IMG/VR virus record: IMGVR_UViG_3300033047_000008
Span: 1-29,922 of that record
Length of the DNA stretch: 29,922 nt
From: a virus
Reading direction: 5' to 3' (one strand)
Position 1 is the first letter of the stretch. The number at the start of each line of letters is the position of its first letter. A program made the position numbers and the translations under genes. Shown here piece after piece: positions 1 to 28,316 of the stretch. The notes under the pieces are model-generated. The model did not search any database. It was not told the origin of the DNA and was given only the letters and a program-made list of their open reading frames with translations.

Positions 1-270
1 TGCTTCCCGCATAGGGCGGCTCAGGTGATCGATCTGTCGGAGATAATCCAGCATGGCTCCACGCACTTTGTATCGAGCATAGGTGTCAAAGCTGGCTCCC
101 CTGTCTCCGCGATACTTTAGAGAGGCGGTGAAAAGTCCGACCAATCCAGCTGCATGAAACTCCTCTGCTGTTCTGCTTGCTGGCATCCGGTCAGTCATTC
201 GGGTAGCGATACCCCACAACCTTTTCTCCCATCCACCAGCCAAAAGCTCCTCTATTGTTCTCTGCTGCAT
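1..270 (-). CDS. Sigma factor, FliA/sigma-28 type (3' end outside window)
   Basis: The frame is open from an ATG at 270 to base 1 (90 codons, no stop), so only the N-terminal part is present. It reads as sigma70-family regions 1.2-2.4. Residues 23-46 (WEKRLWGIATRMTDRM then PASRTAEE) match region 1.2/2.1, HAAGLVGLF is the usual AGxxGL segment, and RGASFDTYARYKVRGAMLDY is the highly conserved FliA/SigB-type -10 recognition helix, followed by LRQIDHLSRPMRE. The family binds core RNA polymerase and directs it to class-specific promoters. The gene starts 9 bases after the stop of the probable virion protein upstream, so the two are likely co-transcribed. Regions 3 and 4 lie beyond the edge. That it is a sigma factor is close to certain; that it is active, and its promoter targets, are inference. 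Confidence 0.88.
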   Translation of the reverse strand, partial: MQQRTIEELLAGGWEKRLWGIATRMTDRMPASRTAEEFHAAGLVGLFTASLKYRGDRGASFDTYARYKVRGAMLDYLRQIDHLSRPMREA

Positions 271-279
271 TCAAGCATC

Positions 280-1072
280 TTACATATCCTCAAGCGAAAA
301 CGAGAAGCCTACGGAAATATCTCCAGTAGATGCAGCCATTTTTGCGCAGAAGATAATGTCAGTCAGCTCTTCAAACACAACAGGCACATCAAAGTGAAGC
401 TCGTGGAAGCCAGAGATCTTTGTGAACTCTAGGTTGTTGCGCAAAGCTGGGAAAGGAGCAGAGTCAATCAGGATTCCCACACGGGAAGCGATGATTACGT
501 TTGCATCCTGGGGGCTGTCAATGTTCAAGTACCCATCTTTGATGAGAATCCGCTTTCCTTTTGGAACAGTGTAAGCACCGATGTTTGTTTGAGCGCGTGC
601 GAAATCGGTATCCAGGATGATTCCCCAGTCCTGAGTGCCAGCAGCATTCTCAATCGTAATCGTGTCTTCGTGAGAAGGTGTATCCAGATCTCCGTAAACA
701 CCACTACCAGTGACAAACGCGCGGAGGAGCCGAAGGAACTTTCTTGAAGTAGGCTGACTGGCTGAAGCACCAGCGGTAGCGACCTTATCAACAGCGAAAA
801 ATCCATCTTCGCCAATGCCGTGAAACTCAACCTCTGTGGCTCCAGAGCCAGCGGCAGTATCATTTGCATGTCCTCCGGCTTTCACGCGCAATGCCACAGC
901 TCCACCGGGAGGGGGGCATCCGGAAAAGGTTGTTTAGGGACAAGACTTCGTAGCCAGATGAGCCTACTGCTTGATTTCTTCCAAACTTATGAACAGGGCG
1001 AGCGCCTGGAACACGACCGGAAGAAACTTCATGTCCATAATCAAGAGGCTTGGGGGTTTCAGTGAGAACCAT
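280..1072 (-). CDS. Probable virion structural protein, apparent frameshift near 911-916
   Basis: Two overlapping minus-strand frames appear to be one gene. The first begins at ATG 1072 and encodes a typical N-terminus (VLTETPKPLDYGHEVSSG, then GARPVHKFGRNQAVGSSGYE) before going out of frame. The second, open to the stop at 280, continues with a beta-rich Gly/Ala/Thr segment (ALRVKAGGHANDTAAGSGA) and the remaining 200 residues. The join lies at a run of six G (plus strand, 911-916), where a one-base change gives a continuous protein of about 263 aa. The layout (short basic head with KFGRN, then AGG-NDTAAGSGA, then ITIENAAGT) resembles phage virion proteins of unassigned role; this is recalled, not searched. 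Without a frameshift, the 3' part would start at GTG 897 with no well-placed ribosome site. It is followed at 9 bases by the sigma gene. Confidence 0.6.
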
Positions 1073-1114: not shown

Positions 1115-1130
1115 TAACGGTGTTAAGTTA
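1115..1130 (-). repeat. Copy 1 of a 16-bp motif TAACTTAACACYGTTA
   Basis: Minus-strand TAACTTAACACCGTTA, matching the plus-strand copy at 5866-5881 at 15 of 16 positions. It overlaps the stop codon of the gene above and lies about 43 bases upstream of the virion protein start. Both copies are in non-coding or gene-border DNA and point towards downstream genes on their own strands, so a phage-polymerase promoter or protein-binding site is possible. Function is inference. Confidence 0.45.
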
Positions 1131-1463
1131 CCCGAAGATCATCCACACTAGAATGCCGACTGCAGCAACACCACAAAAGATTCCAGTGAAGAGCCACCAC
1201 TGTAATCCTTTAGTTAGCTTTGGTGTACTGAATGGAAGGGGGTCAGGCAAAATCAAATGGGAGAGATTCAGGCGTTTGTTCCCCTCAAACTGAGCAAGAA
1301 TCTCACCGGAAAACGCCCTGAAAAATGTCCTCTCTGCTTCCGTGTATGGCTCGGTCCTTGGGGGGTAAAGCCTTGAGATAGCTGCATCGTTTTCTTCCAT
1401 CTGCTCATGCAGCCAAGTGCGCCGAGCCATGTGCAACTCCATTAGTTTTTCTTTCTTACCCAT
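1128..1463 (-). CDS. Unknown small protein with C-terminal membrane segment
   Basis: 111 aa from ATG 1463; a GTG at 1466 is an alternative start. An AGGA about 10 bases upstream can serve the ATG. The body is charged and probably helical (EKLMELHMARRTWLHEQMEE). The last 24 residues form one strongly hydrophobic helix (WWLFTGIFCGVAAVGILVWM), so the product is likely tail-anchored in the membrane. The start overlaps the end of the preceding gene (stop at 1456), which indicates translational coupling in the leftward small-gene operon. No family recognised. Confidence 0.65.
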   Translation of the reverse strand: MGKKEKLMELHMARRTWLHEQMEENDAAISRLYPPRTEPYTEAERTFFRAFSGEILAQFEGNKRLNLSHLILPDPLPFSTPKLTKGLQWWLFTGIFCGVAAVGILVWMIFG

Positions 1464-1728
1464 CACGTTGTTTCCTAAATCTTAGGTAGGTGGCAATCAG
1501 TCCTTCGCGCAGCGTTATGAACTCTTCATTTGACAACACCTTGCTATCGCAAACGGATGTTGCATGGAAGATGTTATTAGGCATCATCAATATCTGCCTC
1601 CGGTGAACGAAGAACCCTGTTGATTCCCCGTCCGGAGCGTAATGCTCGCACAGCATTTCAATCTTGCCGCGCCGCCGTTCGATCTCCTCTGGTGAAGGCC
1701 GCTTAACTTTGAAGTGCCAATCATCCAT
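1456..1728 (-). CDS. Unknown small protein
   Basis: 90 aa from ATG 1728. The frame is open nine codons further (to 1755), but the ATG at 1728 overlaps the stop of the upstream gene (1721-1723) and has GGAG upstream, in keeping with the overlapping style of this operon. The sequence is mixed, with a basic N-terminal part (RRRGKIEML) and a C-terminal helix (TLREGLIATYLRFRKQ). No catalytic motif or membrane segment is visible. No family recognised. Confidence 0.6.
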   Translation of the reverse strand: MDDWHFKVKRPSPEEIERRRGKIEMLCEHYAPDGESTGFFVHRRQILMMPNNIFHATSVCDSKVLSNEEFITLREGLIATYLRFRKQRDG

Positions 1729-1966
1729 CCCGTTTCTCCAGCTGGGTTTTTGCAAACTGAAGCCATTTTATTAGTTCATCAATGCACTCTGTAGGAATAT
1801 GCACGCACTTCCCCGGCGCATCTTTTCCCGGAAGAGGCACGCTTGTTATTTCTACACATTCAGACAGGATGTTGATTGAAGCCCCATATCCGTAAAAGGT
1901 TGGGTTAGCGATCAGGATTGGCGAAGTCCGTTCATGCATTGGCCATTCTTCAGGGAGTGGTGACAT
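1721..1966 (-). CDS. Unknown small protein
   Basis: 81 aa from ATG 1966, which overlaps the previous stop as TGATG and is preceded by GGGGGAG, so the longer frame to 1987 is unlikely to be used. It has an N-terminal segment rich in Pro and Gly, a central stretch of likely beta strands (SINILSECVEITSVPLPG) and a C-terminal helix (ECIDELIKWLQFAKTQLEK). No recognised family. Its role can only be guessed from its place among small left-arm genes. Confidence 0.6.
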   Translation of the reverse strand: MSPLPEEWPMHERTSPILIANPTFYGYGASINILSECVEITSVPLPGKDAPGKCVHIPTECIDELIKWLQFAKTQLEKRDG

Positions 1967-2343
1967 CAAAGCACTCCCCCATGCCAACCATTAGTAATCG
2001 CAGTAACGATCTCCTCCACTTGCTTCTTAACACGCAAAAGCCATAGCTCATGGTTATCAACACTCGTAGCACACTGATGCACAATGTCAGGCAGCGTGAT
2101 TGACAGAAGGACCGGAGGAGAATCCGTCCAATCATCCGCATCGGTGTACTTCTGTAAAGCTACACGCAAAATGTAGGTTGTGCCTTGGTAATCGTGCGGA
2201 CGTTGCTCTCTCCACTCCAACCTGATTACTTGCATTACTTTGATATCACGAGTCCTGCTGTAAGCGCAGAGCTGTGTAACAAAGTTTTTAACCAAGACAG
2301 TAACGAAACGGCTGGTCCCCACTAGGTCGAGGTCGTGACTCAT
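1966..2343 (-). CDS. Unknown protein
   Basis: 125 aa starting at ATG 2343, whose ATGA overlaps the stop of the upstream gene at 2340. The predicted product alternates likely strands and helices (MQVIRLEWREQ, TTYILRVALQKYTD, VLLSITLPDIVHQ) and ends with a helix (LLRVKKQVEEIVTAITNGW). There is no signal peptide, membrane segment or recognisable motif. It belongs to the leftward run of overlapping small genes. Confidence 0.62.
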   Translation of the reverse strand: MSHDLDLVGTSRFVTVLVKNFVTQLCAYSRTRDIKVMQVIRLEWREQRPHDYQGTTYILRVALQKYTDADDWTDSPPVLLSITLPDIVHQCATSVDNHELWLLRVKKQVEEIVTAITNGWHGGVL

Positions 2344-2531
2344 TTGCCCAGCCTCGTAAGAATCTCAGTTAGTTTAGCTCGCTGATTACTCGACAAGAAA
2401 AACATTGAAGAGTCAAACCGTTCCGATTTCTCGTAAAGGTCTTCAACAAAATCCAGTTCCCAAGTAGTTAGCCCTGATGGAATGTCGAGCGCGGCTTGGA
2501 TGTCTTGCACGTCTTGGTTTAGTTCACTCAT
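2340..2531 (-). CDS. Unknown small protein
   Basis: 63 aa from ATG 2531, which overlaps the upstream stop as ATGA and has GGAAG at a suitable distance; an in-frame ATG at 2543 is the alternative. The C-terminal two thirds (LTTWELDFVEDLYEKSERF, then LSSNQRAKLTEILTRL) is helical and resembles a short motif common in phage proteins (WExxFxxDL...LSxxQxxxLxxI). That resemblance is from memory and no function is attached to it. Confidence 0.6.
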   Translation of the reverse strand: MSELNQDVQDIQAALDIPSGLTTWELDFVEDLYEKSERFDSSMFFLSSNQRAKLTEILTRLGK

Positions 2532-2731
2532 GTTATCTTCCATGCAACGGTTACAACAGCGTAGCTCTCATACTTAAACATTTTTCCCGCGCTATTACGA
2601 ACGGTAATAGCAGCGCCATCAACATCCCCATGCGACGATACTCTAATCTCTTTTAAGGCCGCGAGCTTCGGGCTGGTAGCTTCAACCGCTACTTCCGTGC
2701 TTTCGTCTATCGACACTTGGTAAATGGCCAT
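2528..2731 (-). CDS. Unknown small beta-rich protein
   Basis: 67 aa from ATG 2731, selected because GGAGGAG lies 6 bases upstream and the ATG overlaps the upstream stop (TAATG). The frame remains open to 2770. The sequence looks like alternating beta strands with Val/Thr/Ala (YQVSIDESTEVAVEATSP, AAITVRNSAGKMFKYESYAV). No catalytic motif. It sits between the membrane zinc-ribbon gene and another small gene. Confidence 0.62.
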   Translation of the reverse strand: MAIYQVSIDESTEVAVEATSPKLAALKEIRVSSHGDVDGAAITVRNSAGKMFKYESYAVVTVAWKIT

Positions 2732-2970
2732 TAGAACTCCTCCTGCCAGTTTGAATGGCACTCTGAACAAAAGTAAAAGTCTAACCGTAACTCCATAGAG
2801 CGATCATGGCCGAGATGCTTTGACCCGCATTCGCATTGCACTCTTGGATCGGATTCTCTCTGCCTCCTCTTTAATCTCCAATCGATCCACTTGGACCGTA
2901 GTACGGGAATCAAGATGGCGAGGAGGAGGAGGGCAACGAAGAGGATGTCTTCTAGTGTGAAAATGAACAT
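2731..2970 (-). CDS. Membrane-anchored small zinc-ribbon protein
   Basis: 79 aa. Residues 8-24 (DILFVALLLLAILIPVL) form one membrane helix, followed by a strongly basic stretch (RSKWIDWRLKRRQR). A probable zinc-binding domain follows, with CxC at residues 46 and 48 and CxxC at 68 and 71. By the positive-inside rule the zinc domain should be cytoplasmic. Start ATG 2970 overlaps the preceding stop (TAATG). A membrane-tethered metal domain in a phage early-type operon suggests an action on a host membrane process; this is inference and no family is recognised. Confidence 0.65.
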   Translation of the reverse strand: MFIFTLEDILFVALLLLAILIPVLRSKWIDWRLKRRQRESDPRVQCECGSKHLGHDRSMELRLDFYFCSECHSNWQEEF

Positions 2971-3404
2971 TAGATTTTTATCAATCCTGAGTCAATCAAA
3001 TGGTGGTCGATCAGAACTACGTCTGCATGTTTGCCACCGGAAAGTTGGAAGACAGGCGGACCCGTTACAGGATCACTCCCAAGGAAGACGGAAGCGCTGA
3101 TGCTGTTTACTCGATGAGCCGTGATATTTTTATGCACGTCTTTCACCTGTATGCTGTTTGCATGTGCCACATACTCTTCCCAAACATTAAACATTCCTGC
3201 AGGCAGAATGAGTGCGACAGTTTTCCCTTCAAACGCAAGCGTTGCCGCTTTGCGAAACATCCCAGTAGTCCGGCCAGTGCAGCGGTAAGAATGCTCGGCA
3301 GCTTTTTGCACTGCCATGTATTGACGAAGACTTGTTTCGACCTTCTGCACAGTTAGCTTTGCTTTATCTAGCTCTTTAAGGATCTGTTGAAGTGGTGTAA
3401 GCAT
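2970..3404 (-). CDS. P-loop-like protein with GRTT motif
   Basis: 144 aa from ATG 3404, which overlaps the upstream stop (TAATG); the frame extends to 3470 but without a better start. After an N-terminal coiled-coil-like region (LQQILKELDKAKLTVQKVE), TGRTTGMFRKAATLAFEGKT looks like a modified Walker A loop. ADVVLIDHH near the C-terminus looks like a Walker B strand. Small GRTT-type P-loop proteins are common and mostly uncharacterised in phages. Nucleotide binding is likely; hydrolysis is not shown because the classical GKT/S lysine is absent. It lies two genes after the RNA ligase. Confidence 0.6.
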   Translation of the reverse strand: MLTPLQQILKELDKAKLTVQKVETSLRQYMAVQKAAEHSYRCTGRTTGMFRKAATLAFEGKTVALILPAGMFNVWEEYVAHANSIQVKDVHKNITAHRVNSISASVFLGSDPVTGPPVFQLSGGKHADVVLIDHHLIDSGLIKI

Positions 3405-3850
3405 TACAGAATCTCCAAAAGAGTGCTGGTTACTTCCTGAGAGTTGACCATCACGTAGCCTTCCATCCAAGGAATGATTACGACCTTCAGACCGAAGATG
3501 CGATGTGCTTTCTTATTCCCTATCTGCATTTGCACAGTGCCATCAATCACTCCCATGTATTCGTCGTGAACACGCGGCCCCATGAGAAGAACGTCTACCT
3601 TTGCACTATAGAGCGCTTCTAAATCGTCTAAGCCAAGGGGGAGATCATCGATCAGACTCTTACCGTTAAACCTAGAAGTGTGGTAAGCATTAGTGCGTTC
3701 CTCAAGGGAAGCGGGAGTCTTCGTGTTACGAAGCAACCATCGTGCAGCTTTAACCAGCCAGGAGTCACCGATGATACGCGAGACATCTAACGGTATAGCA
3801 CGCATAGCGTACTCTACGTTGATGTGGACTTGTTGAGCTTTGTGGTGCAT
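3404..3850 (-). CDS. Unknown protein downstream of RNA ligase
   Basis: 148 aa from ATG 3850, which overlaps the RNA ligase stop (TGATG); a GTG at 3853 is less likely. The N-terminal half is helical with charged residues, and the C-terminal half is strand-rich (VDVLLMGPRVHDEYMG, AHRIFGLKVVIIPWMEG). Phage proteins with a related 'FGLKVVIIPW' segment seem familiar, but I cannot attach a name or role. Strict coupling to the ligase suggests a related function or at least equal expression. Confidence 0.62.
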   Translation of the reverse strand: MHHKAQQVHINVEYAMRAIPLDVSRIIGDSWLVKAARWLLRNTKTPASLEERTNAYHTSRFNGKSLIDDLPLGLDDLEALYSAKVDVLLMGPRVHDEYMGVIDGTVQMQIGNKKAHRIFGLKVVIIPWMEGYVMVNSQEVTSTLLEIL

Positions 3851-4482
3851 CACTGGAAGTCCCTATGCTTAATCTTCGTGATGACCCGATCACCAAACTG
3901 GTTAAGCAGTTCAATGTTATGTGGTCGTGCAATAAGCCCTTCAGCAGTGAAATCGCCAAACTGGCTTTTGAAACCTTGTCTTACAAAATCAAGGCCATAC
4001 GCAAGAGAACCAGTCCCGATTTTAGGAGCAGTATTCACATCCAAATAAGCAGCAGTATGGCCAACATCACTCTGTAAATGCCATGCACCATTTGCTGCAC
4101 GGATGTCAAACAGAATGAAAGTTTGCCCTTTGCCATCCGGCATGTAGCTTCCTCCTTTCTGGATTCCAGCACCAACGCCTTCACCATAAAGAGTATCACC
4201 AACCTGTAAAAACTCACCTTTGCTAACAGGGAACATCTCAATCAGAGCGTTCATCAAACCTGCAGGAATCTGTGCGTTGTTGGTACGACCACCAAAGATG
4301 AACTTCTCGCCATCCCAGTGTACGCGGATGTTGGTTCCGTCCAGCTTCTCAGCGAACTGCCAGTTGTTTTCAGCAAGGAACTTAAACGCTGGATCAGAGT
4401 ATTCCCCTATGAGGAAAGTCTTGTGATTGTTTTTCGGATCTCTCTTGAAGATCGACTGAATCTTGTGGTAGGTGTGGTTCAT
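3850..4482 (-). CDS. RNA ligase (Rnl2-like nucleotidyltransferase)
   Basis: 210 aa. It carries the covalent nucleotidyltransferase motifs in order: motif I EKLDG with the lysine that would be adenylated (K46) followed by TNIRV; motif III LYGEG at about 99-102; motif IIIa FILFDIR at 122-128; motif IV EGLIAR at 181-186; and motif V VITKIK with K203 and K205. The enzyme would seal RNA ends with ATP. Proteins of this size consist of the adenylyltransferase domain with little or no C-terminal domain. The gene has its own promoter with the -10 box 6 bases before the ATG, no ribosome site, and tRNA genes immediately upstream. This fits repair of cleaved tRNAs, as with T4 Rnl1, although the physiological substrate is inference. 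It heads the overlapping leftward operon. Confidence 0.88.
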   Translation of the reverse strand: MNHTYHKIQSIFKRDPKNNHKTFLIGEYSDPAFKFLAENNWQFAEKLDGTNIRVHWDGEKFIFGGRTNNAQIPAGLMNALIEMFPVSKGEFLQVGDTLYGEGVGAGIQKGGSYMPDGKGQTFILFDIRAANGAWHLQSDVGHTAAYLDVNTAPKIGTGSLAYGLDFVRQGFKSQFGDFTAEGLIARPHNIELLNQFGDRVITKIKHRDFQ

Positions 4483-4488
4483 GCTGAC

Positions 4489-4516
4489 AGACTACCTTAT
4501 CTTTCCGGCCTGTCAA
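4489..4516 (-). promoter_or_regulatory. Promoter of RNA ligase, predicted leaderless
   Basis: Minus strand: TTGACA (4516-4511), 16-base spacer, TAGTCT (4494-4489), then 6 bases to the ATG at 4482. The expected transcription start is therefore the start codon or within a base or two of it, and no ribosome-binding site is present. The element is nearly identical to the integrase promoter at 7480-7507 (shared TTGACAGG, AGATAAG and TAGTCTGTC blocks). TGACAG and CTGTCA form an inverted repeat flanking the promoter. Confidence 0.7.
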
Positions 4517-4526: not shown

Positions 4527-4601
4527 TGGCAGGGGTAGAAGGACTCGAACCTACAACTCTCAGAATCAAAGTCTGATGCTCTACCATTGAGCTATACCCC
4601 T
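4527..4601 (-). tRNA. tRNA-Gln (UUG)
   Basis: A complete cloverleaf of 75 bases with encoded CCA. Acceptor AGGGGTA pairs with TACCCCT, D-arm GCTC/GAGC, anticodon stem TCAGA/TCTGA around loop CTTTGAT (anticodon TTG), T-arm with loop TTCGAGT. It reads CAA and, by wobble, CAG. The first pair is A-U rather than the U-A usual for bacterial tRNA-Gln. A terminator hairpin on the same strand abuts its 5' end, and the RNA ligase promoter begins about 10 bases beyond its 3' end. Confidence 0.93.
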
Positions 4602-4634: not shown

Positions 4635-4698
4635 GAAACGCATTCATCTTGGTTAACTTATCTTCCGGTAGCAGAAGATCTTAGATGGAGTAGTTCCC

Positions 4699-4918: not shown

Positions 4919-4924
4919 GATGAC

Positions 4925-4953
4925 AGACTAGAATCTCTGTCCAGGATTGTCAA
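4925..4953 (-). promoter_or_regulatory. Promoter for the tRNA block
   Basis: Minus strand TTGACA (4953-4948), 17-base spacer, TAGTCT (4930-4925), within the last codons of the 100-aa gene. The -10 and the following bases to ATG 4918 match the RNA ligase promoter at 14 of 15 positions. The start site would be at about 4918, just upstream of the tRNA-like element and the 103-nt tRNA, with the terminator at 4602-4634 closing the unit. Confidence 0.65.
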
Positions 4954-7479: not shown

Positions 7480-7507
7480 TTGACAGGGAGAATAGATAAG
7501 TTAGTCT
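7480..7507 (+). promoter_or_regulatory. Promoter of integrase, predicted leaderless
   Basis: TTGACA (7480-7485), 16-base spacer, TAGTCT (7502-7507), then 7 bases to ATG 7515. With the RNA ligase promoter it shares TTGACAGG, AGATAAG and TAGTCTGTC in the same register. GACAG and CTGTC half-sites lie at its two edges. No ribosome-binding site precedes the ATG. Confidence 0.7.
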
Positions 7508-7514
7508 GTCCACC

Positions 7515-8525
7515 ATGTCAGTAAAACAACGAGGAAACCCCTGGACGGTATCCGTCAATCGTGAGGGGAATCGCTACCGGAAGGGTGGCTTCGATACAAA
7601 GAAAGATGCGCTCACTTGGGAGCAGACTATTAACCGTATGCTCGACCGTGGCCTTACACCAGACGTGGATGCAATCCGTATTGGTGTTCCAACCACGCTT
7701 AGCCAGCTGCAGATAATGACGGAGAAGACCGTATGGCGTGGGCAGAAAGGAGAGCGCACTGCTGTTACAAACAGTTTGCATGTTGTCCGCATCCTGGGGG
7801 ATAACTTCTCTGTTGCTGATTTGGATACTCCGGTCATTATAGGTTTAACTGCTGCGCTTCGTTCTGAAGGATTAGACAATGGAACGGTCAACCGTAAGCT
7901 GGCTGCGCTTAGCCGGATGATTACTTTGGCGTTGGACACTGGAGCGCTAAACCGTCGCCCAAAGATTACTCGCCTCAAAGAGAAGGAAGGGCGCTTGCGT
8001 TTTCTTTCCACTTCGGAAGAGAAGGAAATGCTTTATACCTTATTCAAGTTGGATAATGACATTGGAGATTTATGTCAGTTCTTGCTTGAGACTGGATGCC
8101 GTTCCGGTGAAGCCTTAAAACTTCGTTGGTCAGACGTGCTTAAAGATAGCATCGTGTTGAAGAAAACGAAGTCTGGAAAACCCCGCACTGTTCCTATGAC
8201 GGTGAATGCTTCTGCTGTTCTGCGTCGCCGGAAGAAGAGAAGCCCGAATGTTGGTCCTTTCAACTTGGTAATCCAGTCCCGTCTTAATGCTGTGTGGAAC
8301 ACGGCAAAGGCGTGCCATGACTGGGCAAAGGATGATGTGGAGGTTGTACCGCACTGCTTGCGTCACACTTGCGCTTCCCGTTTAGCAATGGCAGATGTTC
8401 ACTTGATTCGCATAATGCGTTGGATGGGACATAGTTCAATCACGCAGACGATGCGTTACGCTCACCTTGCTCCACAGGAACTTGAAACTGCACGCGAGCA
8501 ACTAGAACACTTTAAGCCGGAGTAG
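7515..8525 (+). CDS. int: Tyrosine recombinase (phage integrase)
   Basis: 336 aa, usual length for a phage integrase. The N-terminal part has arm-binding/core-binding features (TVSVNREGNRYRKGGFDTKK; SAM-like helices at about 75-140). The catalytic domain shows the full set of residues: R196 (ETGCRSGEALKL), K219 (KTKSGK), H280 and R283 (HCLRHT), H306 (MGHSS) and the nucleophile Y315 (MRYAHL). It would catalyse site-specific integration or excision at a phage attachment site. Its presence between the first early gene and the RNA polymerase follows the pattern of integrase-bearing T7-like phages. It has its own promoter; GGAG in its last codons serves the next gene. The attachment site is not proven; tRNA-like sequences at 4699-4918 are candidates. 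Confidence 0.95.
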   Translation: MSVKQRGNPWTVSVNREGNRYRKGGFDTKKDALTWEQTINRMLDRGLTPDVDAIRIGVPTTLSQLQIMTEKTVWRGQKGERTAVTNSLHVVRILGDNFSVADLDTPVIIGLTAALRSEGLDNGTVNRKLAALSRMITLALDTGALNRRPKITRLKEKEGRLRFLSTSEEKEMLYTLFKLDNDIGDLCQFLLETGCRSGEALKLRWSDVLKDSIVLKKTKSGKPRTVPMTVNASAVLRRRKKRSPNVGPFNLVIQSRLNAVWNTAKACHDWAKDDVEVVPHCLRHTCASRLAMADVHLIRIMRWMGHSSITQTMRYAHLAPQELETAREQLEHFKPE

Positions 8526-8527: not shown

Positions 8528-8728
8528 ATGCCACTTCTTAGGGAGACAGCTACTCACGAGTGGCACGCGGTACAGTGTGCGAAATGCACAACGAAGATGG
8601 AGATTCGGATTAAGGCTGGATCTCTCTCCACGAGCAAACAGTTCAATGCCGCGCATGAGTTTGTGTGCAAAGACTGCAGGGAAACGAAACCTACACAACA
8701 CCTAGTCCATTCGATTTTTGGCACTTGA
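8528..8728 (+). CDS. Small zinc-ribbon protein
   Basis: 66 aa. Two CxxC knuckles (C17/C20 and C47/C50) separated by 26 residues form a probable zinc ribbon. The ATG is preceded by GGAG at 6 bases inside the integrase end, so it is coupled to integrase. Its 3' end overlaps the RNA polymerase TTG start by 11 bases. Nucleic-acid or protein binding is likely for such a fold, but no specific role can be assigned. Confidence 0.68.
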   Translation: MPLLRETATHEWHAVQCAKCTTKMEIRIKAGSLSTSKQFNAAHEFVCKDCRETKPTQHLVHSIFGT

Positions 8729-11105
8729 TGAAGAAACAATCCAGGGACTAACCCGCAACCGCTATTGGTCCGCTGTTCATCGTGCGCGAGCAGATGGGAA
8801 AGAAACTAATACGCTTGCTGGGCGGTTCCTTCTTTCTCATACAGTTGCATCACTCTCTGAAGTGATTACGCTTTGGTGTGAGAAGGCATGTAAAGGTGCT
8901 GGGCGAAAGCATGGCTGCTTACCTCAGATGCGTTTACTTGAGCCTTCAATCGCGGCTTTAATCGTTTCCAAGATTGTGCTGGACGGTGTAGCGACAGTCC
9001 GATCCCGCACAGAGATTGCAACAGAAGTTGGTCGCCGCATGGAGGATGAATACCGTTTCCGGTTACTAAAGAAACATAAGCCGAAATACTGGAAGACCAT
9101 TCTTCGGGATCGTCGTCACGCAAACGAGGCGCACCTTACGAAGATCCTCACTACACTTTGTCTGAAGGAAGCGGGAGCAATCTCTTACAAATCGTGGAGT
9201 AAAGTACAACGCGCTCGTGTAGGTCTCCTTCTTATTGAGCTGCTTATTTCTTCAACTGGTTTGGTGGAGATGGAGCGCCGCCCAAAAACACGAGGCAAGA
9301 AAATCAGGATGCAGTCCTTTTTGGTTCCTGCTGAAGATACTTTAGATTGGCTAGAGAAGTCTCACGAGCATCACCAAGCCCTTGCTCCCTTCTACCTACC
9401 GATGACAACTCCTCCTCTGGATTGGTCGGATACGGATCGTGGTGGTTATGAAGGTGATGTGATTAGCCGTTATCCCCTAGTCCGGTTGCGGCACGCAGAC
9501 AACGACAAGTTGCTTGATGAAGATATGCCTATGGTGTATGACGCTGTGAACACATTGCAGAAAACAGGGTGGAGAGTAAATCGAAAAGTATACGACGTGT
9601 TTCTTCAGCTTTGGGAAGAAGGGGGTGGAGGAGTTTTACCTAGCCGCAACTCTGAACCATTGCCGGAGAAGCCAGAAGACATTGGCACAAATGAATCAGC
9701 TTTAGCAGACTGGAAGAGACAGGCTGCTCCTATCCATGAACGAAATGGAGTCGTCAAGGCTCAGCGTTTGCGGACTCTCAAAATGGCATTTGTCGCCAAA
9801 GAGGTATCAGAGAATGAAAAAATCTACTTCCCTTACCAGCTCGACTTCAGAGGAAGAGCGTACTGCGTCCCTCAGTTCTTCAACCCACAAGGACCAGACC
9901 TTGCACGCGGTTTACTTGAGTTCTCCGATGGCCACATTGCGACCGACAGCCGCTATCTCTTTCACTGGGCCGCCAACTGTTTCGGAGTCAAAGGAACTTT
10001 TACTGAGAGGGAAGCATGGGTGGAATCGAACATGGCACAGATTCTTGCTGTGGTGCGCGACCCTTTGGAACAGCGATTCTGGGTTGAAGCTGATGATGCT
10101 TGGCAGTTTCTTGCTTGTTGTTTTGCTATCGATGATTTTCGGAATGCACGTCCTTTACACCTACCTGTTCACATCGACGGCACTAACAATGGTCTTCAGA
10201 TTTACGCGCTGATTCTTGGGGATGAACGCTTAGCAAAGATGACTGGATGCACTCGTTCAGATGTTCCAGCCGATGCGTACATGTCAGCGTTTGCACATCT
10301 CCAAGATAAGTTATCCACGATGGGGGAACGCATGGCTGATAGATGGTTAGTGTTCTTCCAAGGAATCGGACCAAAGAAGTGTCGCACGCTTATGAAGCGA
10401 CCATTGATGACTTTAGCTTTTGGCCTCACGAGCTGGGCATTGCGCGATCAGTTGGATAAATGGTTCAATGATTTGTGCCGAGATGATGCAGCAGATCCTT
10501 GGGATATGTCTATTCGCCGTGATGCTTTGGATTTGCTTAGTGAAGCAGTTTGGCAAGTCATCCAACGGTATGCGGGAAAAGCTCTTGGTGCAATGGACTG
10601 GTTGCAAGAGGTGTCGCAAGCAGCACTGGAAACATCAGCAGTGTTATCTTGGAAATCACCTTCTGGTTTTCGTGTTATTCAAGATTACAGAAAACGAGAG
10701 AAGAGACAAATCCAGCTTGTACTTGGTGAGTGCGTGCGGAACATGACACTGCGTTTAGATAATGATGAGCCGAGTTGGCTCGACCATAAGAAAGCTGTCT
10801 GCCCAAACTTTGTTCATAGTCTAGACGCTGCTGCTTTGATGGAAACGGTGTGCAGAATGAGTGCGTTGGGTTGCACGTCATTCGCTGCTGTGCATGACAG
10901 CTATGCAGTTCATCCTCATTTGGTTGGCCACCTGCACGCAGAGGTTAGGCAGGCGTTTCATGGTCTAGCATTAACCAACCCTCTAAAAAGTTTCCAGGAG
11001 GAGGTGCTTGAACTTGCCCCTGGTGCTGATAGAGTGCCTTGTCTGCTTCCGAAAGGGGCATACCAATCGAGTGAGCTGCAAACTGCCGCCTACTTTTTTC
11101 ATTAA
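8718..11105 (+). CDS. T7-type single-subunit RNA polymerase
   Basis: 795 aa (T7 gp1 is 883). It transcribes phage genes from phage-specific promoters without accessory factors. The palm/fingers motifs are clear: IDGTNNGLQ with catalytic D487 (T7 D537), MKRPLMTLAFG with K560 (T7 K631), FVHSLD with H700 (T7 H784) and VHDSY with catalytic D727 (T7 D812). The residue at T7 Tyr639 is Phe (F568). DFRGRAYCVPQFFNPQG matches T7 DWRGRVYAVSMFNPQG. The only in-frame start before conserved sequence is TTG 8718; a TAG lies at 8703. The ATG overlapping the previous stop (8728) is in another frame and ends after seven codons, so the start is unsettled. The first conserved N-terminal helix (DEETIQGLTRNRYW) begins at residue 4, so little is missing. 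Confidence 0.95.
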   Translation: MALDEETIQGLTRNRYWSAVHRARADGKETNTLAGRFLLSHTVASLSEVITLWCEKACKGAGRKHGCLPQMRLLEPSIAALIVSKIVLDGVATVRSRTEIATEVGRRMEDEYRFRLLKKHKPKYWKTILRDRRHANEAHLTKILTTLCLKEAGAISYKSWSKVQRARVGLLLIELLISSTGLVEMERRPKTRGKKIRMQSFLVPAEDTLDWLEKSHEHHQALAPFYLPMTTPPLDWSDTDRGGYEGDVISRYPLVRLRHADNDKLLDEDMPMVYDAVNTLQKTGWRVNRKVYDVFLQLWEEGGGGVLPSRNSEPLPEKPEDIGTNESALADWKRQAAPIHERNGVVKAQRLRTLKMAFVAKEVSENEKIYFPYQLDFRGRAYCVPQFFNPQGPDLARGLLEFSDGHIATDSRYLFHWAANCFGVKGTFTEREAWVESNMAQILAVVRDPLEQRFWVEADDAWQFLACCFAIDDFRNARPLHLPVHIDGTNNGLQIYALILGDERLAKMTGCTRSDVPADAYMSAFAHLQDKLSTMGERMADRWLVFFQGIGPKKCRTLMKRPLMTLAFGLTSWALRDQLDKWFNDLCRDDAADPWDMSIRRDALDLLSEAVWQVIQRYAGKALGAMDWLQEVSQAALETSAVLSWKSPSGFRVIQDYRKREKRQIQLVLGECVRNMTLRLDNDEPSWLDHKKAVCPNFVHSLDAAALMETVCRMSALGCTSFAAVHDSYAVHPHLVGHLHAEVRQAFHGLALTNPLKSFQEEVLELAPGADRVPCLLPKGAYQSSELQTAAYFFH

Positions 11106-11125: not shown

Positions 11126-11836
11126 ATGTCACAACTGATTCTAAAGGATAAGCCGACGAAAAAAGGTCCACGCACCTACGTCACAACTGGAGTTGGCAAA
11201 GCCAGCTACCCTCGTCTGGATAAGCCAGATGACAAGTACAAAGCGGACGGCGAGTACAAGTGTGGAATCGTCGTTGAGAAAAAGGAGCCTTGGGCGAAAC
11301 AACTCATCAAACATATTGATGAGATGCACGCTGAGAATATCAAAACCCAGAAGAAACTTCTGAAAAAGAAGAAGGTTGATATCTGCAATGATCTTCCTTA
11401 CCGGGATGTCTTTGAAAAGACTACTGATGATGACGGGGATGAAGTCTTGGTCCCTACTTCTCTTGTTGAGTTCCGCTTCAAGATGGATGCGGTTGTCCGC
11501 CCGAAAGGAAAGAAAGCCTGGACGCAGAAGCCAAATGTTTTTGATGCGAAACAGAAGCCTGTTACTGCCAAAGTTGGCGGAGGCTCTTCTGTTCGCGTAG
11601 CTGGTGAACTGTTCCCGTTTTACAACGATGCACTTGGCTGTGGTTTGTCCATGCGTCTAAGCGCTGTTCAAGTTCTTGAGCTGGTTGAATACGGTGCAAG
11701 CGCTGAGACTTACGGTTTCGCTGAAGAGGATGGTTTCGATGGGAGCCAAGGTGGCCGGACTTCTGATGAGTTTGAAAACGGCGAAGGTGGTCCGGGTGAT
11801 GACTCTAAAGACGGAGGAAGCGGCGACGACTTCTAA
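11126..11836 (+). CDS. Single-stranded DNA-binding protein, gp2.5-like
   Basis: 236 aa (T7 gp2.5 is 232). The N-terminal part has the family features (GKASYPRLDKPDDKY, EYKCGIVVEKKEPWAKQLI), and the C-terminus ends in a long acidic tail (GGPGDDSKDGGSGDDF). In T7 the corresponding tail contacts DNA polymerase and helicase. A lysine-rich loop (KKLLKKKKVDI) may contact DNA. It follows the RNA polymerase by 20 bases and is followed at 2 bases by the RusA-type gene. No strong ribosome site precedes it. It coats ssDNA during replication and recombination. Confidence 0.88.
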   Translation: MSQLILKDKPTKKGPRTYVTTGVGKASYPRLDKPDDKYKADGEYKCGIVVEKKEPWAKQLIKHIDEMHAENIKTQKKLLKKKKVDICNDLPYRDVFEKTTDDDGDEVLVPTSLVEFRFKMDAVVRPKGKKAWTQKPNVFDAKQKPVTAKVGGGSSVRVAGELFPFYNDALGCGLSMRLSAVQVLELVEYGASAETYGFAEEDGFDGSQGGRTSDEFENGEGGPGDDSKDGGSGDDF

Positions 11837-11838
11837 CG

Positions 11839-12246
11839 ATGGAGTTTACTCTTCCCTTCCCGATTTCTGAGAATAAGTACCGTCGTGCGTGGCCAGTTTT
11901 ACTTGGCTTCGGCAAGAAAGGTTCACTCAAATGCCCATGTGGGCGTGCGTGGACTGCGCGGCAAATAATCAGTCGGGAAGGGAAGCAGTACAAACAGGAT
12001 GTAGTGGATGCGATTAGGCGTATGGATAACCCTCCAAGGTTCACCGTCCCTGTCAAGGTCCGCTACATCTTCCACCGCCATGACCGCCGGGGATACGACA
12101 TTGGTAACTTCATCAAAGCACTTGATGATGGACTGGAAGAAGCCAAAGTATTTACGGACGATCGCTTGATTGATGATGAGCATTTGATTCGTGGAGAAGT
12201 CCGCCCAAAGAAAGGGTGTGTGCGGGTCTTTATCGAAGCCTTGTAA
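11839..12246 (+). CDS. RusA-type Holliday junction resolvase
   Basis: 135 aa, typical size for RusA. The diagnostic segment RRGYDIGNFIKALDDGL followed by AKVFTDDRLIDD contains the acidic residues used for metal-dependent cleavage (D in YDIGN, D in ALDDGL, D in TDDRLID). An extra CxC pair (KCPCGRAW) lies near residue 36. It would resolve branched DNA before packaging and takes the genomic position of T7 endonuclease I (gp3), a non-homologous replacement. It sits 2 bases after the SSB and 5 bases before the primase-helicase. Confidence 0.88.
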   Translation: MEFTLPFPISENKYRRAWPVLLGFGKKGSLKCPCGRAWTARQIISREGKQYKQDVVDAIRRMDNPPRFTVPVKVRYIFHRHDRRGYDIGNFIKALDDGLEEAKVFTDDRLIDDEHLIRGEVRPKKGCVRVFIEAL

Positions 12247-12251
12247 CCACA

Positions 12252-13943
12252 ATGAAAACTACCGACGAACATTCTAGTGAGCTGAAAGAAGCTCACCGAC
12301 CTTGCACCACTTGTGGATCAAGTGATGCCGAATGCCTTTATGATGACGGGCATACTTACTGCTTTTCTTGCGGTGTGAATATACCTGGAGATGGGGAGGC
12401 GGCTGTCGTTGAGAAAGAAGACGAAGCCGCTCCACCAGAGCCGACTAAAGGCGAGTTTGTTCGCATGTCTGCAAAGGATCTAGGGAAGCGAAAACTGAAA
12501 AAAGCCACCCTGGAAAAGCTGGGCTATGGTGTTGGCAAGTTCTCTAACAAGGCAGTTCAGGTTGCGGCTTACACAGATTCACAAGGAACACTTACCGGAC
12601 AGAAGATTCGCTTCGCAAATAAGGAGTTCCTTTGGCTTGCAGATAAGACAAAAGAAATCACTCTGTTTGGGCAGCACGCTTGGCGGGAAGGAGGCGAGAC
12701 AGTCATCGTCACAGAAGGGGAGATCGATGCACTTAGCCTTGCACAAGTCCTCAGCTTAAAGACTCCTGTTGTTTCGATTCGTCGTGGCAGTAAAGGTGCG
12801 CGAAAGGATCTTGAAGAAAACTTTGAATGGCTTGATTCTTTCAAAAATATCGTTCTGTGTTTTGACATGGATGATCCTGGGCGTGAAGCCATGTTCGAGT
12901 GTGCTGACTTGTTCAGCCCAAACAAATGTTTCATAGCGCAGCTCCCACTTAAAGATGCGAGCGATATGCTTGTTGAGGGTCGAGAGAAAGAGCTGATTGA
13001 TTCGGTTATGACGGCAAAGCCATACCGTCCTGATGGTTTAGTTTCCGGAGAAGTTGTCTGGAATGAGATTATCAAAGAAGATAATGTCCCCCATCTGGAG
13101 TACCCTTGGTCCGGTCTGCAGGAAAGTACCCGTGGAATCCGTGGAGGCGAAATCGTTACTTGGTGCGCTGGTTCCGGCATTGGCAAGAGCGCTGTTTGTA
13201 AAGAGATTGCTGTGTGGATTCGCTCTCATGGTGAGAAGATTGGCTATATCGCTCTGGAGGAATCAGTCAAGCGAACTGCCATTGGTTTGATAGGTATCGT
13301 TATGGATAAGCCGCTTTGGCTATATCTGGAAGAAGAGATGCCCGAAGAGAAAGATCTTCGCAGTGCGTTTGATGAAGTGATTGGTGGTGATGGTGTAACT
13401 TTCTACGACCACTTTGGTTCAACAGAAGGGGAGACGCTTTTGGCAAAAATCCGCTACATGGCGAAAGCCTGTGGAATCAAATACATTTTCCTTGACCACT
13501 TGAGCATTGTTGTTTCAGGAATGACTGAAGGGGATGAACGCCGCCGCATCGATAACTTGATGACCAGTCTTCGCTCATTGGTTGCTGAAACTAACTGCTC
13601 ACTGCATGTAGTAAGCCACTTGAAGCGACCGGAAGGCAAGGGGCATGAAGATGGCGCACGTACTTCGCTTGCGCAGTTACGCGGCTCTGCTGGCATTGCT
13701 CAGCTGTCTGATATCGTCATTGGACTAGAGCGCGACCAGCAAGATCCAGAGACGCGAGAAGTTACAACTATTCGCGTCCTTAAAAATCGATTCACTGGTG
13801 TTTGTGGTTTAGCAGGTGCATTGCGTTACTCTGCTCTAACTGGTCGTCTGAAAGAAGTTGATAGCTTTGATGAGATGAGTGGCCGTGGTGATGGAAATCC
13901 GATGGATAGTTCTGATGATAAAGGAGCAGGCGATGAGTTTTAA
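12252..13943 (+). CDS. Primase-helicase, T7 gp4-like
   Basis: 563 aa (T7 gp4A is 566). N-terminal zinc ribbon with C18, C21, C37, C40; TOPRIM primase core with EGE (E155, E157) and CFDMDDPG (D205, D207); then a RecA-type DnaB-family helicase with Walker A GSGIGKS (307-313), a Walker B-like YIFLDHLS and the LRGSAGIAQLSD region. The acidic C-terminus (SSDDKGAGDEF) matches the polymerase-binding tail of T7 gp4. The start at 12252 was chosen because the zinc ribbon begins shortly after; the frame extends to 12216. It unwinds DNA and makes RNA primers at the fork with the polymerase encoded next. Confidence 0.95.
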   Translation: MKTTDEHSSELKEAHRPCTTCGSSDAECLYDDGHTYCFSCGVNIPGDGEAAVVEKEDEAAPPEPTKGEFVRMSAKDLGKRKLKKATLEKLGYGVGKFSNKAVQVAAYTDSQGTLTGQKIRFANKEFLWLADKTKEITLFGQHAWREGGETVIVTEGEIDALSLAQVLSLKTPVVSIRRGSKGARKDLEENFEWLDSFKNIVLCFDMDDPGREAMFECADLFSPNKCFIAQLPLKDASDMLVEGREKELIDSVMTAKPYRPDGLVSGEVVWNEIIKEDNVPHLEYPWSGLQESTRGIRGGEIVTWCAGSGIGKSAVCKEIAVWIRSHGEKIGYIALEESVKRTAIGLIGIVMDKPLWLYLEEEMPEEKDLRSAFDEVIGGDGVTFYDHFGSTEGETLLAKIRYMAKACGIKYIFLDHLSIVVSGMTEGDERRRIDNLMTSLRSLVAETNCSLHVVSHLKRPEGKGHEDGARTSLAQLRGSAGIAQLSDIVIGLERDQQDPETREVTTIRVLKNRFTGVCGLAGALRYSALTGRLKEVDSFDEMSGRGDGNPMDSSDDKGAGDEF

Positions 13944-15858
13944 GGCATACATCGTTGACATTGAAACTAACGGACTCCTTCCGCCCCAGCTGGAGAAAAC
14001 AATCGTTAGCGAGATTCACTGCATTGTTTTACGCAATCAGAAGGGCGTAACAAAGGTTTTCATTGACCCGGCTAAAGCCAAGCAAGCTAAGTGGAAAGCA
14101 GATGGCACTCTTGAAGATGCTGCAAATATCTGCGCTGCAGCCGATGTTCTGATTGGCCATAACGCGCAAGAGTTTGACATCGGAATCCTGTTGAAGTTCT
14201 TTCCTAATAACATGCGTGAGTGGAAAGATTGTTGGACTAGGAAGAAGCACGGGAAACTTGTGCGTGATACGCAAATCATGGCACGTCTCATTTGGCCTGA
14301 TATTAAGCCCTACGACTTTGCGTTGAAAGGTAAGCTACCAGGGCGACTTAAAGGGGCGCATAGTCTGGAGGCATGGGGCTACCGTCTTGGTGAGAAAAAA
14401 GGAGAGTATGGAAAGCAAACTGATTGGAGCCAGATCGATCACGAGATGGTTTCATATTGTGTGCAAGATGTCGCTGTCACCGCGAAGCTGTTTCGCCGTT
14501 TAACTGGGCGGCTAAAGACATGGCCGAATGGTGGTGTAATCGCAGAACGTCTTGAACATGAGTTTGCTGAGTGCATCTCAGAGCAGATGCGGAATGGCGT
14601 GCATTACGACCGTGTGGCGCACGACAAACTTTACAAAAAGATCTGCACTGAGCGGGATAAGCAGCGTGAGTTCATTCGTACCTCTTGCCCCCCTTGGGAA
14701 GAGCAGCTTAAAACCAAAGTTAAAATCACACCATTCAACCCAAATAGCCGGATGCAGATGGAGAAGTTTCTGCGTCAGCGCTATGACTGGGTTCCACAAG
14801 AAAACGAGATGACTCCAACAGGGCGTGCAGAAATGAATGAAGCTGTGCTGTCTCACCCAAGGATGTCGGAGTACAAGGAGGCAGAGTGGTTCCATCGTTA
14901 CCTGTACCTACAATCGCGTGCAGCTGAGATTGAAGAAGGCAAGCAGTCCTATCTCAAGCACTACAACGAAGACACTGGCTGTGTTCATGGTTACGTGAAT
15001 CATAACGGTGCAGTTACAAGTCGATGTACGCACAGCAAACCTAACAAGGCGAATGTGGTTGCGATTGACAAAGAGTACGGTCCTGAAACTCGCGCACTGT
15101 TTTGCACTCCTGGAGCTGACTGGCATTTCCTTGGTTGGGATGCAAAAGGAATCGAGTTCCGTGGTCTAGCTCATTACACTGTTCCTTACGATGATGGAGA
15201 ACTAATCGACATCGTTTTGAATGGCGATATTCACTGGAAGAATACGCAAGCGCTTCTACATGTGCTTGGACATCCAGAGTTTATTGGAGCAGTCTACGAC
15301 TCAACAAACAAAACTATGGTGGAGTGTCGAGACTTCGCCAAGACGTTTATCTACGGCTACATGTACGGTGCGCGTGATCCAAGATTAGGCAGCATCATCC
15401 AACCAAAGGCTAGTGAACGTAAGCGGAGATCAATCGGAAAATCTCTTCGCAGTGTATTTGAGAAAAATATACCAGCACTACCTCTCCTTCAGGCAGACAT
15501 CATTGAAGAAGCTAGGAAGAATCATAAAAAGATTGTTGGCCTAGATGGCCGTATGCTCGACATTCGTTCAGACCATAGTGCGCTGAACACAAAGTTACAG
15601 GGCTTCGGTGCAATCGTGATTAAGCAGGCATCTGTTCTTGTTCGGGAATGGGCAGGTGAGCGTTGGACCTACGGCAAAGATTTTGCACAAGTGCTTCATG
15701 TTCACGACGAAGCGCAATCGCAAGTGAAGATTGCCATCGCTGAAGAGTATGCGCAACTTGCATGTAAAGCTGTCGAAGAGACAGGAAAAATGTTCGGTGT
15801 TCTTTGCCCTCTTGGGGCAGACACTAAAATCGGAACCAACTGGGCGGAGACCCATTAA
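13933..15858 (+). CDS. Family A DNA polymerase with 3'-5' exonuclease
   Basis: 641 aa. Exonuclease motifs: VDIETNG (D9, E11), LIGHNAQEFDI and YCVQDVAV. Polymerase motifs: A, WDAKGIEFRGLAHY (D403); B, RDFAKTFIYGYMYG (K470, Y474); C, HVHDEAQ (D592, E593). Y474 corresponds to T7 Tyr526, so this enzyme has the tyrosine form of the nucleotide-selection site, as in T7, not the E. coli Pol I phenylalanine. ATG 13933 has GGAG at 6 bases and overlaps the helicase gene by 11 bases. Shorter than T7 gp5 (704 aa); whether the thioredoxin-binding loop is present cannot be decided here. Confidence 0.96.
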   Translation: MSFKAYIVDIETNGLLPPQLEKTIVSEIHCIVLRNQKGVTKVFIDPAKAKQAKWKADGTLEDAANICAAADVLIGHNAQEFDIGILLKFFPNNMREWKDCWTRKKHGKLVRDTQIMARLIWPDIKPYDFALKGKLPGRLKGAHSLEAWGYRLGEKKGEYGKQTDWSQIDHEMVSYCVQDVAVTAKLFRRLTGRLKTWPNGGVIAERLEHEFAECISEQMRNGVHYDRVAHDKLYKKICTERDKQREFIRTSCPPWEEQLKTKVKITPFNPNSRMQMEKFLRQRYDWVPQENEMTPTGRAEMNEAVLSHPRMSEYKEAEWFHRYLYLQSRAAEIEEGKQSYLKHYNEDTGCVHGYVNHNGAVTSRCTHSKPNKANVVAIDKEYGPETRALFCTPGADWHFLGWDAKGIEFRGLAHYTVPYDDGELIDIVLNGDIHWKNTQALLHVLGHPEFIGAVYDSTNKTMVECRDFAKTFIYGYMYGARDPRLGSIIQPKASERKRRSIGKSLRSVFEKNIPALPLLQADIIEEARKNHKKIVGLDGRMLDIRSDHSALNTKLQGFGAIVIKQASVLVREWAGERWTYGKDFAQVLHVHDEAQSQVKIAIAEEYAQLACKAVEETGKMFGVLCPLGADTKIGTNWAETH

Positions 15859-15860
15859 CA

Positions 15861-16631
15861 ATGTTTGAAAAGACTGACAGAGTTCTTTTGCTTGATGGCG
15901 ACGTGTTCGCCTTTCGCTACTGCGCAGCAAGTGAAGAAGAGATTGACTGGGAAGATGATTTCTGGACACTTCATACAAATCTAGGACAAGCGAAAGCACG
16001 TATCCTAGATTCGGTTGCAGAGTGCATGGAGATTGCTGGCTGTAACAAGATGGTTTGGGCATTCTCTGCACCGGGTAACTGGAGGAAGCAAGTGATGTCT
16101 TCATACAAAAGCAATCGTAAAGGTAAGCGGAAGCCACTCGGCTACGTTGCTGTGTGTGAGTTTTTTGCACAGTTCTTCCCTTCGTTTGTTTGGCCAACAT
16201 TAGAAGCTGATGATGTCCTTGGTGTTCTGATGACGGAGCCAAAAGATGTAAAGCGTCCGCTTGTTACTGGTGAGCGGTTTGTTTGTTGCTCCATTGATAA
16301 AGACATGCGGACTATTCCAGGGCTGCATCTCAATCCACAGAAACTTGAAGAAGGTGTTGTGGAAGTGACAGAAGAGGAAGCAGATTTTGCACACCTAAAA
16401 CAAGCCTTGATGGGGGATTCAACTGATGGCTATTCTGGTTGTCCTGGTGTGGGGCCAGTAAAAGCAGAGAAGCTGCTAAGCGAGAATGTAAGCTGGGAGA
16501 CTGTTCTGAAATCTTACAAAGCAGCTGGGCTTGGCGAAAAGGTTGCGTTGCAAAACGCGCGAGTAGCCCGTATCCTCCGCTATGGTGAGTACATGCCAAG
16601 GAAACGGGAGGTAAAGCTATGGACCCCATGA
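15861..16631 (+). CDS. 5'-3' exonuclease, T7 gp6-like
   Basis: 256 aa. The flap-endonuclease/5'-exonuclease fold is indicated by acidic clusters in the expected order: LLLDGDVFAF, TLEADDVLGVL, CCSIDKDMR and GDSTDGYSGCPGVGPVKAEKLL, the last being the helix-hairpin-helix-type DNA-binding element. In T7-like phages it removes RNA primers and processes recombination and host DNA. It starts 2 bases after the polymerase gene; its last codons overlap the next gene by 13 bases and supply that gene's GGGAGG. Confidence 0.9.
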   Translation: MFEKTDRVLLLDGDVFAFRYCAASEEEIDWEDDFWTLHTNLGQAKARILDSVAECMEIAGCNKMVWAFSAPGNWRKQVMSSYKSNRKGKRKPLGYVAVCEFFAQFFPSFVWPTLEADDVLGVLMTEPKDVKRPLVTGERFVCCSIDKDMRTIPGLHLNPQKLEEGVVEVTEEEADFAHLKQALMGDSTDGYSGCPGVGPVKAEKLLSENVSWETVLKSYKAAGLGEKVALQNARVARILRYGEYMPRKREVKLWTP

Positions 16632-16927
16632 GAGATGAAAACGGAAGGACTGTTTACGAGACTTTGCGCGGACAAGTTGGGGCGGATTCAGATGGTCCTG
16701 CCCCTGACGATATGCCAACAGCTGTTGGTGTAGAACCAACTACTGAGGCGGATGCAGCATTTCCTGGATGCTCTGAAGCGCTCATCCGCCACTTAGCTCA
16801 TCAGTTCCCAAATAGATGTCCTGGACTTGAAGACCCAGACCGCGTAATCTGGGCGAGTTCTGGTGCTGCTTTTGTAGTCACCTACCTTCGTCAAGCCTTA
16901 ACCGTCTACCAAGAAGAGCATAAATAA
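16619..16927 (+). CDS. Small conserved-type protein before portal
   Basis: 102 aa, with GGGAGG 8 bases before the ATG. The N-terminal 55 residues are low-complexity and acidic. The C-terminal half (ALIRHLAHQFPNRCPGLEDP, VIWASSGAAFVVTYLRQAL) resembles small unnamed proteins often found between exonuclease and portal in T7-like podoviruses. No catalytic motif. Function unknown. Confidence 0.65.
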   Translation: MDPMRDENGRTVYETLRGQVGADSDGPAPDDMPTAVGVEPTTEADAAFPGCSEALIRHLAHQFPNRCPGLEDPDRVIWASSGAAFVVTYLRQALTVYQEEHK

Positions 16928-16930
16928 GCC

Positions 16931-17116
16931 ATGTGTCTAAGCGCTCCTGATGTGCCGGATCTCCCTGAGCCACCTCCGCCACCTCCGCCACCTCCTGCAC
17001 CAACTGCAACTACTCCTCCAAGGAGATCTGCAGCAGCAAGGGAGCGCAGTCGTTCAACTTCACTTGGTACGGGCCAGTTTCGTATTCCTTTAGGGCAAGT
17101 GAACTTGCCTACTTGA
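16931..17116 (+). CDS. Small proline-rich protein before portal
   Basis: 61 aa beginning MCLSAPDVPDLPEP, followed by a run of nine prolines, then a basic Ser/Arg region (PRRSAAARERSRS). Short MC-start proline-rich proteins in this position are recurrent in T7-like podoviruses, with no known function. It starts 3 bases after the previous stop; the portal ATG follows its stop directly. A ribosome-binding site is weak. Confidence 0.6.
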   Translation: MCLSAPDVPDLPEPPPPPPPPPAPTATTPPRRSAAARERSRSTSLGTGQFRIPLGQVNLPT

Positions 17117-17117
17117 A

Positions 17118-17804: not shown

Positions 17805-17816
17805 TATGCTGGAGTT

Positions 17817-18722: not shown

Positions 18723-18725
18723 AAC

Positions 18726-19523: not shown

Positions 19524-19528
19524 CTAAC

Positions 19529-20119: not shown

Positions 20120-20144
20120 CATAAGACAGCTGTCTGTTTACGCT
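20116..20144 (+). promoter_or_regulatory. Promoter-like element with GACAGCTGTC palindrome
   Basis: TTGACA (20116-20121), 17-base spacer, TACGCT (20139-20144). The spacer contains the perfect palindrome AGACAGCTGTCT. The -10 has the same TAnnCT form as the early promoters, and the GACAG/CTGTC half-sites recur there. A terminator starts immediately afterwards, so any transcript would be very short unless termination is controlled. Confidence 0.35.
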
Positions 20145-20187
20145 GTGAGCGCTGGTGGTCGAAAGGCTGTCAGCGCTCCAGCTTTTT
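20142..20187 (+). terminator. Strong terminator before the capsid gene
   Basis: Stem GCTG-(bulged T)-GAGCGCTG with CAGCGCTC-CAGC, extended inward through G-U-rich pairs to a GAAA tetraloop (20161-20164), followed by TTTTT. It ends the unit containing the lipoprotein gene. The capsid gene must then have its own promoter in 20188-20300 or rely on read-through. The remaining 110 bases before the capsid ATG show no sigma70 promoter I would defend. Confidence 0.8.
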
Positions 20188-20300
20188 CTGGTTGATTTGA
20201 AGGCGAAGACTCCCCGTTACGGCGCGGTTGTTGAGGCTCCACTTCTGGTAGATGGATAAGAAATAACTTCTCTACCTACTCCTTCTGAGGAATCAACAAA

Positions 20301-21305: not shown

Positions 21306-21383
21306 TCTCTTTGGTTCTCTGCTGAGTACCATTACCGGGGGGCTGGGGGTGTCACCTTCTTCCAGCTCTCCACCTTTACCAAA

Positions 21384-28314: not shown

Positions 28315-28316
28315 TC

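Follow-up and report, generated by a model that had tools for sequence, protein, structure and literature searches.

A FliA/WhiG-type sigma factor fragment at the edge of a putatively temperate T7-like virus record that also encodes a T7-type RNA polymerase

What could a sigma factor offer to a phage that has an RNA polymerase of its own and can express its late genes without the host polymerase? The classical example of transcription shared between the host polymerase and a single phage enzyme is provided by the T7-like phages, and a member of this group with an alternative sigma factor would show that such a division leaves room for a further component, namely a factor that steers the host polymerase. 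The virus record analyzed here, which encodes the beginning of a FliA-type sigma factor at its left edge and a T7-type RNA polymerase further to the right, would provide a system for asking this question, and the leading answer is that the phage would gain control of host genes.

The window, that is, the whole stretch of DNA that was analyzed, comprises an entire virus record, a linear fragment of 29,922 bases that lacks end repeats. Comparable complete phages have genomes of 37-46 kb, and therefore about 7-16 kb are absent from the record. Judged by its gene content, the phage is a putatively temperate T7-like virus, with an integrase, a single-subunit RNA polymerase, and T7-type replication and virion genes. 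The rightward arm starts at about 6.3 kb, and its gene order matches that of the temperate T7-like phage LUZ100. Its plus-strand genes include a tyrosine integrase gene (7515..8525; Pfam Phage_integrase, 76.9 bits; phrog_1, 188 bits) and the gene for the T7-type single-subunit RNA polymerase (8718..11105; Pfam RNA_pol, 223 bits; phrog_414, 616 bits), the presence of which had been claimed in an earlier note on this DNA and is confirmed by these matches and by a tree. No relative found exceeds 36% identity to the polymerase, and in the tree, which has long branches, the polymerase falls into a 12-row clade, one member of which is a Verrucomicrobiota MAG contig. The remainder of the arm (within 11126..29921, plus strand) encodes T7-like replication proteins (gp2.5-type SSB, RusA, primase/helicase, DNA polymerase, and exonuclease) and T7-like virion proteins (portal, scaffold, capsid, tail tubular proteins A and B, and internal virion proteins, the last gene of which runs past the right end of the record). 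The SSB, primase/helicase, DNA polymerase, exonuclease, portal, scaffold, capsid, and tail tubular proteins A and B are homologous to those of LUZ100 and are encoded in the same order, with the capsid being 52% identical. Thus, two characteristics of Autographiviridae-type phages, a single-subunit RNA polymerase of their own and the T7-type gene order with its virion proteins, are both found in this record.

It should be noted that the portal gene (17118-18722, plus strand) contains an in-frame TAA at 17802-17804, and an ATG preceded by GGAG is located 12 nt further; an error, reinitiation, or a split portal is possible. Most genes of the window have no clear Shine-Dalgarno motif upstream, and the host may be one that rarely uses such motifs.

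The sigma factor gene is located on the minus strand at the extreme left of the record (1..270). As described in the earlier note, its frame has no internal stop: it extends over 90 codons from an ATG at 270 and is still open at base 1. These codons encode a short N-terminal helix and the complete region 2, the part of known sigma factors responsible for binding to the beta' clamp of the core enzyme as well as for melting and reading the -10 element. Because the gene runs into the end of the record at base 1, regions 3 and 4 are outside the available sequence. The fragment scored 33.7 bits (E 3e-8) with Pfam Sigma70_r2, for which the cut-off is 24 bits, and 68.3 bits (E 8e-19) with the NCBIfam FliA/WhiG model TIGR02479, in which it covers positions 12-80 of 224, so that the full-model cut-off of 189.6 bits is out of reach for a fragment. 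Models of other subfamilies gave far lower scores (16 bits for SigB/F/G and 13 bits for RpoS), solved FliA/WhiG chains matched with E values from 2e-12 to 3e-4, and the best single relatives, bacterial flagellar FliA proteins and FliA-type sigma factors in phage contigs, were 40-43% identical. An AlphaFold2 model (mean pLDDT 85), built from the window and viral sequences, matched region 2 of Pseudomonas sigma28 (9wsm_F) with 1.6 A over 83 columns. The match to sigma region 2 is not due to chance, and the proposal of a sigma70-family protein with a FliA-type region 2 is borne out by Pfam, by TIGR02479, by the solved chains, and by the predicted fold, with FliA/WhiG as the best of the sigma families searched with the 90 residues.

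At the level of single residues, the 6pmi alignment, in which the numbering differs by 6, pairs D75, R78, and R85 of the fragment with D81, R84, and R91 of E. coli FliA, which we take to be the residues that read the -10 element; these positions are invariant in both sequence alignments (A1 and A4). In the DLxQAG motif, the Q, presumably the residue that faces beta' in known sigma factors, is replaced by A, and DDL is replaced by EEF. The Q is also absent from SigD and from one phage sigma factor. When the sigma fragment, its neighbor, and the RNA polymerase were scanned individually against IMG/VR, no close relative and no overlapping or sister contig emerged. The closest sigma matches listed in INPHARED were Cyanophage PSS2 and metagenomic records; one of the closest, MT835480.1, was rejected, since this supposed gut bacteriophage proved to be a flagellar operon of a bacterium, including fliA.

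The sigma gene is the last gene of a divergent minus-strand arm that runs leftward from about 5.8 kb and comprises small open reading frames, a tRNA-Gln, an RNA ligase gene, and a gene matching phrog_8198. The latter gene (280..1072), of unknown function, lies directly upstream of the sigma gene and is broken into two frames by a shift close to six consecutive C (about 906-911); the shift may reflect an error in sequencing, a programmed event, or decay of the gene. The phrog_8198 match is clear in the downstream half and weak in the upstream half, and no confident structure model was obtained for the product (pLDDT 32). The gene had been regarded as encoding a probable virion protein, which is not supported, since phrog_8198 is its only match. 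The small, largely overlapping open reading frames of unknown function in 1128..3853 are part of the leftward transcription unit and had no homologues among the 384 loci compared. They are preceded by the RNA ligase gene (3850..4482; Pfam RNA_ligase, 33.7 bits), the product of which is 49% identical to the ligase of the Manatee Spring podophage, and by the tRNA-Gln (TTG) gene (4527..4601). Two degenerate tRNA-like stretches on the same strand (about 4700-4800 and 4830-4900) were rejected by ARAGORN and Rfam; together with the tRNA-Gln and the RNA ligase gene right behind it, they possibly form a tRNA repair set (4527-4930).

The only motif of the window that occurred above chance was a bipartite 15-base motif, of which three exact copies of the form TTGACA-N16/17-TAGTCTGTC are present. 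One of them (4486..4516, minus strand, N16) abuts the ATG of the RNA ligase gene and might serve as the promoter of the unit containing the sigma gene, the second (4922..4953, minus strand, N17) lies ahead of the tRNA region, and the third (7480..7510, plus strand, N16) abuts the ATG of the integrase gene. Hence, two of the three sites are on the strand that carries the sigma gene and point toward it. The integrase and RNA ligase sites have the same geometry, with the ATG about 7 nt past the -10 element, and the respective transcripts look like leaderless messages. The -35 element and the T-A-N-N-N-T frame of the -10 element resemble promoters of primary sigma factors, and the TTGACA/TAGTCT sites are therefore read as putative early promoters for the host polymerase; the two that point toward the sigma gene, 4-5 kb downstream, may drive it. 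In the two copies abutting gene starts, GACAG...CTGTC forms an inverted repeat, and therefore a repressor operator is also a possible reading.

How unusual is the combination of a sigma factor and a T7-type polymerase? Sigma70_r2 was found in none of 137 T7-like records, a sample of nearest relatives and not a random one, in which many records are fragmentary (117 had been reached by the RNA polymerase and 20 by the capsid, and 50 are at least 30 kb long); control genomes were positive as expected. In bacterial genomes, a profile built from FliA sequences revealed no sigma factor within the flanks compared of 40 T7-like loci. FliA-type sigma factors themselves are common in other phages, with at least 109 IMG/VR contigs encoding one; 83 of these contigs were tested, and all lacked a T7-type polymerase in a search that does detect the polymerase of the window. 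INPHARED contains 2,592 records with a relative of the RNA polymerase, and the INPHARED records listed for a protein related to the present sigma factor or to that of contig L018 (see below) are of other kinds. The survey shows that the combination is rare, not that it is absent elsewhere, in agreement with the earlier view that a sigma factor is unusual in such a phage. In the open-access literature, we found no description of a T7-like phage with a sigma factor (subscription journals were mostly outside the scope). Neither a phage sigma factor nor a temperate T7-like phage is novel by itself; within the material searched, it is the combination of the two that is new.

The FliA consensus has been described as TAAAGTTT-N11-GCCGATAA (PMC2859248). 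In the 29.9 kb, its 15-base form with up to three mismatches did not occur (0.6 sites expected), GCCGATAA with at most one mismatch occurred nine times (15.5 expected), and a looser scan gave the expected count. Thus, the scan for sigma28 promoters, which had been proposed together with the sigma factor, was negative, without any excess of FliA-type sites in the 29.9 kb. Likewise, no repeated promoter of the phage polymerase stood out above shuffled sequences upstream of the rightward genes.

On balance, this putatively temperate T7-like phage probably encodes a genuine FliA/WhiG-type sigma factor that redirects the host core polymerase to targets beyond the 29.9 kb or in the host. Such a factor is favored by the family assignment, the predicted fold, the conserved residues, the evidence for a common genome (see below), and the precedents in other phages, which include FliA-type sigma factors with regions 2 to 4 and the sigma factor gp47 of phage 7-11, which directs the host RNA polymerase (PMC8948821). 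The case is weakened by the replacement of Q by A in the DLxQAG motif and by the lack of a FliA-type promoter excess, as well as by the facts that no relative shares the arrangement, that the gene is confined to the edge 270 bases of the record, and that regions 3 and 4 lie beyond base 1. The host RNA polymerase would produce the sigma factor from the leftward unit, and the factor would then bind to the host core polymerase, a fraction of which it would direct to promoters whose -10 element is FliA-like, while the phage's own polymerase would transcribe the replication and virion genes. As there is no excess of FliA-type promoters in the 29.9 kb, the targets would be located in the missing 7-16 kb or on the host chromosome, and both the missing phage region and host genes, possibly those for motility or another FliA regulon, are likelier targets than late genes. 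More tentatively, three transcription programs might exist, namely one of the host primary sigma factor for the early/lysogeny arm, one of the phage polymerase for replication and virion genes, and one of the FliA-type sigma factor for a set of host genes, e.g. the motility regulon. In this three-program scheme, the FliA-type factor might, equally tentatively, act during lysogeny or infection; a role in lysogeny fits the presence of the integrase.

A late role had been suggested for the sigma factor; in this case, it could recruit the host RNA polymerase to late promoters of the phage, with the T7-type polymerase working beside it. The sigma factors of phages 7-11 and phiEco32 act on late promoters in this way, the factor of phage 7-11 being gp47 (PMC8948821). 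One phage whose terminase is of the lambda GpA type (L018:9965-13053) has a FliA-type sigma gene directly before the TerS, TerL, and portal genes, and this factor is a good candidate for a late-gene switch; in another contig (L025), such a gene is located about 5 kb before TerL. However, across 54 phage loci the genes downstream of FliA-type sigma genes were mixed, without a general link to late genes. Moreover, the virion genes of the present phage form one rightward unit behind the T7-type polymerase gene, as in LUZ100, and FliA-type promoters were not above chance in 29.9 kb that hold most of them. Therefore, a late role is unsupported, and we regard this explanation as improbable.

It is similarly improbable that the gene has decayed or encodes a protein restricted to region 2, which would be either a truncated sigma factor unable to start transcription or a decoy that ties up the core polymerase. 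The frameshift in the upstream gene and the in-frame stop in the portal gene indicate that errors or decay occur in the record, beta'-facing residues of the fragment are altered, and the sequence past base 1 lies outside the record. Nevertheless, the 90 codons are free of stops, the region 2 residues are conserved, and the fold is predicted with confidence. In addition, all viral FliA-type relatives with frames read continue beyond region 2.

An assembly chimera, with a left end that belongs to a different phage or to a bacterial FliA gene, would agree with the position of the 270 bases at the extreme edge, with the unique combination, and with left-arm genes that, the RNA ligase excepted, have no homologues in the compared T7-like loci, but it is quite unlikely, because the sigma start codon follows the intact stop codon of the upstream gene at a natural distance of 9 nt, which a random join would rarely produce, the neighbor of the sigma gene is not flagellar, whereas bacterial FliA loci have flagellar neighbors, the GC content is even along the record, the codon usage of the two arms matches (correlation of 0.95), and the exact 15-base motif is found both in the left arm and before the integrase gene, which ties the left arm, down to at least 4.5 kb, to the core. 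Between 1 and 4.4 kb, chimerism is possible, because the left-arm proteins other than the RNA ligase and the sigma factor had no homologue in the 384 loci.

A genuine sigma factor of the phage can be compared with several known systems. With members of the FliA/WhiG family (TIGR02479; PDB 9wsm, 6pmi, and 6pfv), it shares region 2, at 36-43% identity, the predicted fold, and the residues equivalent to D81, R84, and R91 of E. coli FliA; it differs in being encoded by a phage, outside of a flagellar operon, in having A instead of the beta'-facing Q, and in lacking FliA-type promoters nearby. The FliA-type sigma factors of IMG/VR phages (e.g. L018, L022, L024, and L027) also resemble it in region 2 (31-40% identity in A4), and their contigs differ in that 0/83 carry a T7-type RNA polymerase. 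Several viral contigs of 38-51 kb (L217-L224) encode divergent FliA-like proteins, the similarity of which to the L018 sigma factor is confined to region 2. The likeness to gp47 of phage 7-11 and gp36 of phiEco32, which are also phage-encoded sigma factors with the host core polymerase as the proposed partner, is strictly a functional analogy, and in those phages the factor serves middle and late genes read by the host RNA polymerase. The phages most similar in overall organization are Pseudomonas phage LUZ100 and Mesorhizobium phage Lo5R7ANS, which share the integrase gene before the T7-type polymerase gene, the order of replication and virion genes, and capsids that are 42-52% identical to that of the window. 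These two phages have no sigma gene and an early region that runs in the same direction, whereas the phage described here has a divergent leftward arm with an RNA ligase, a tRNA, and a sigma factor.
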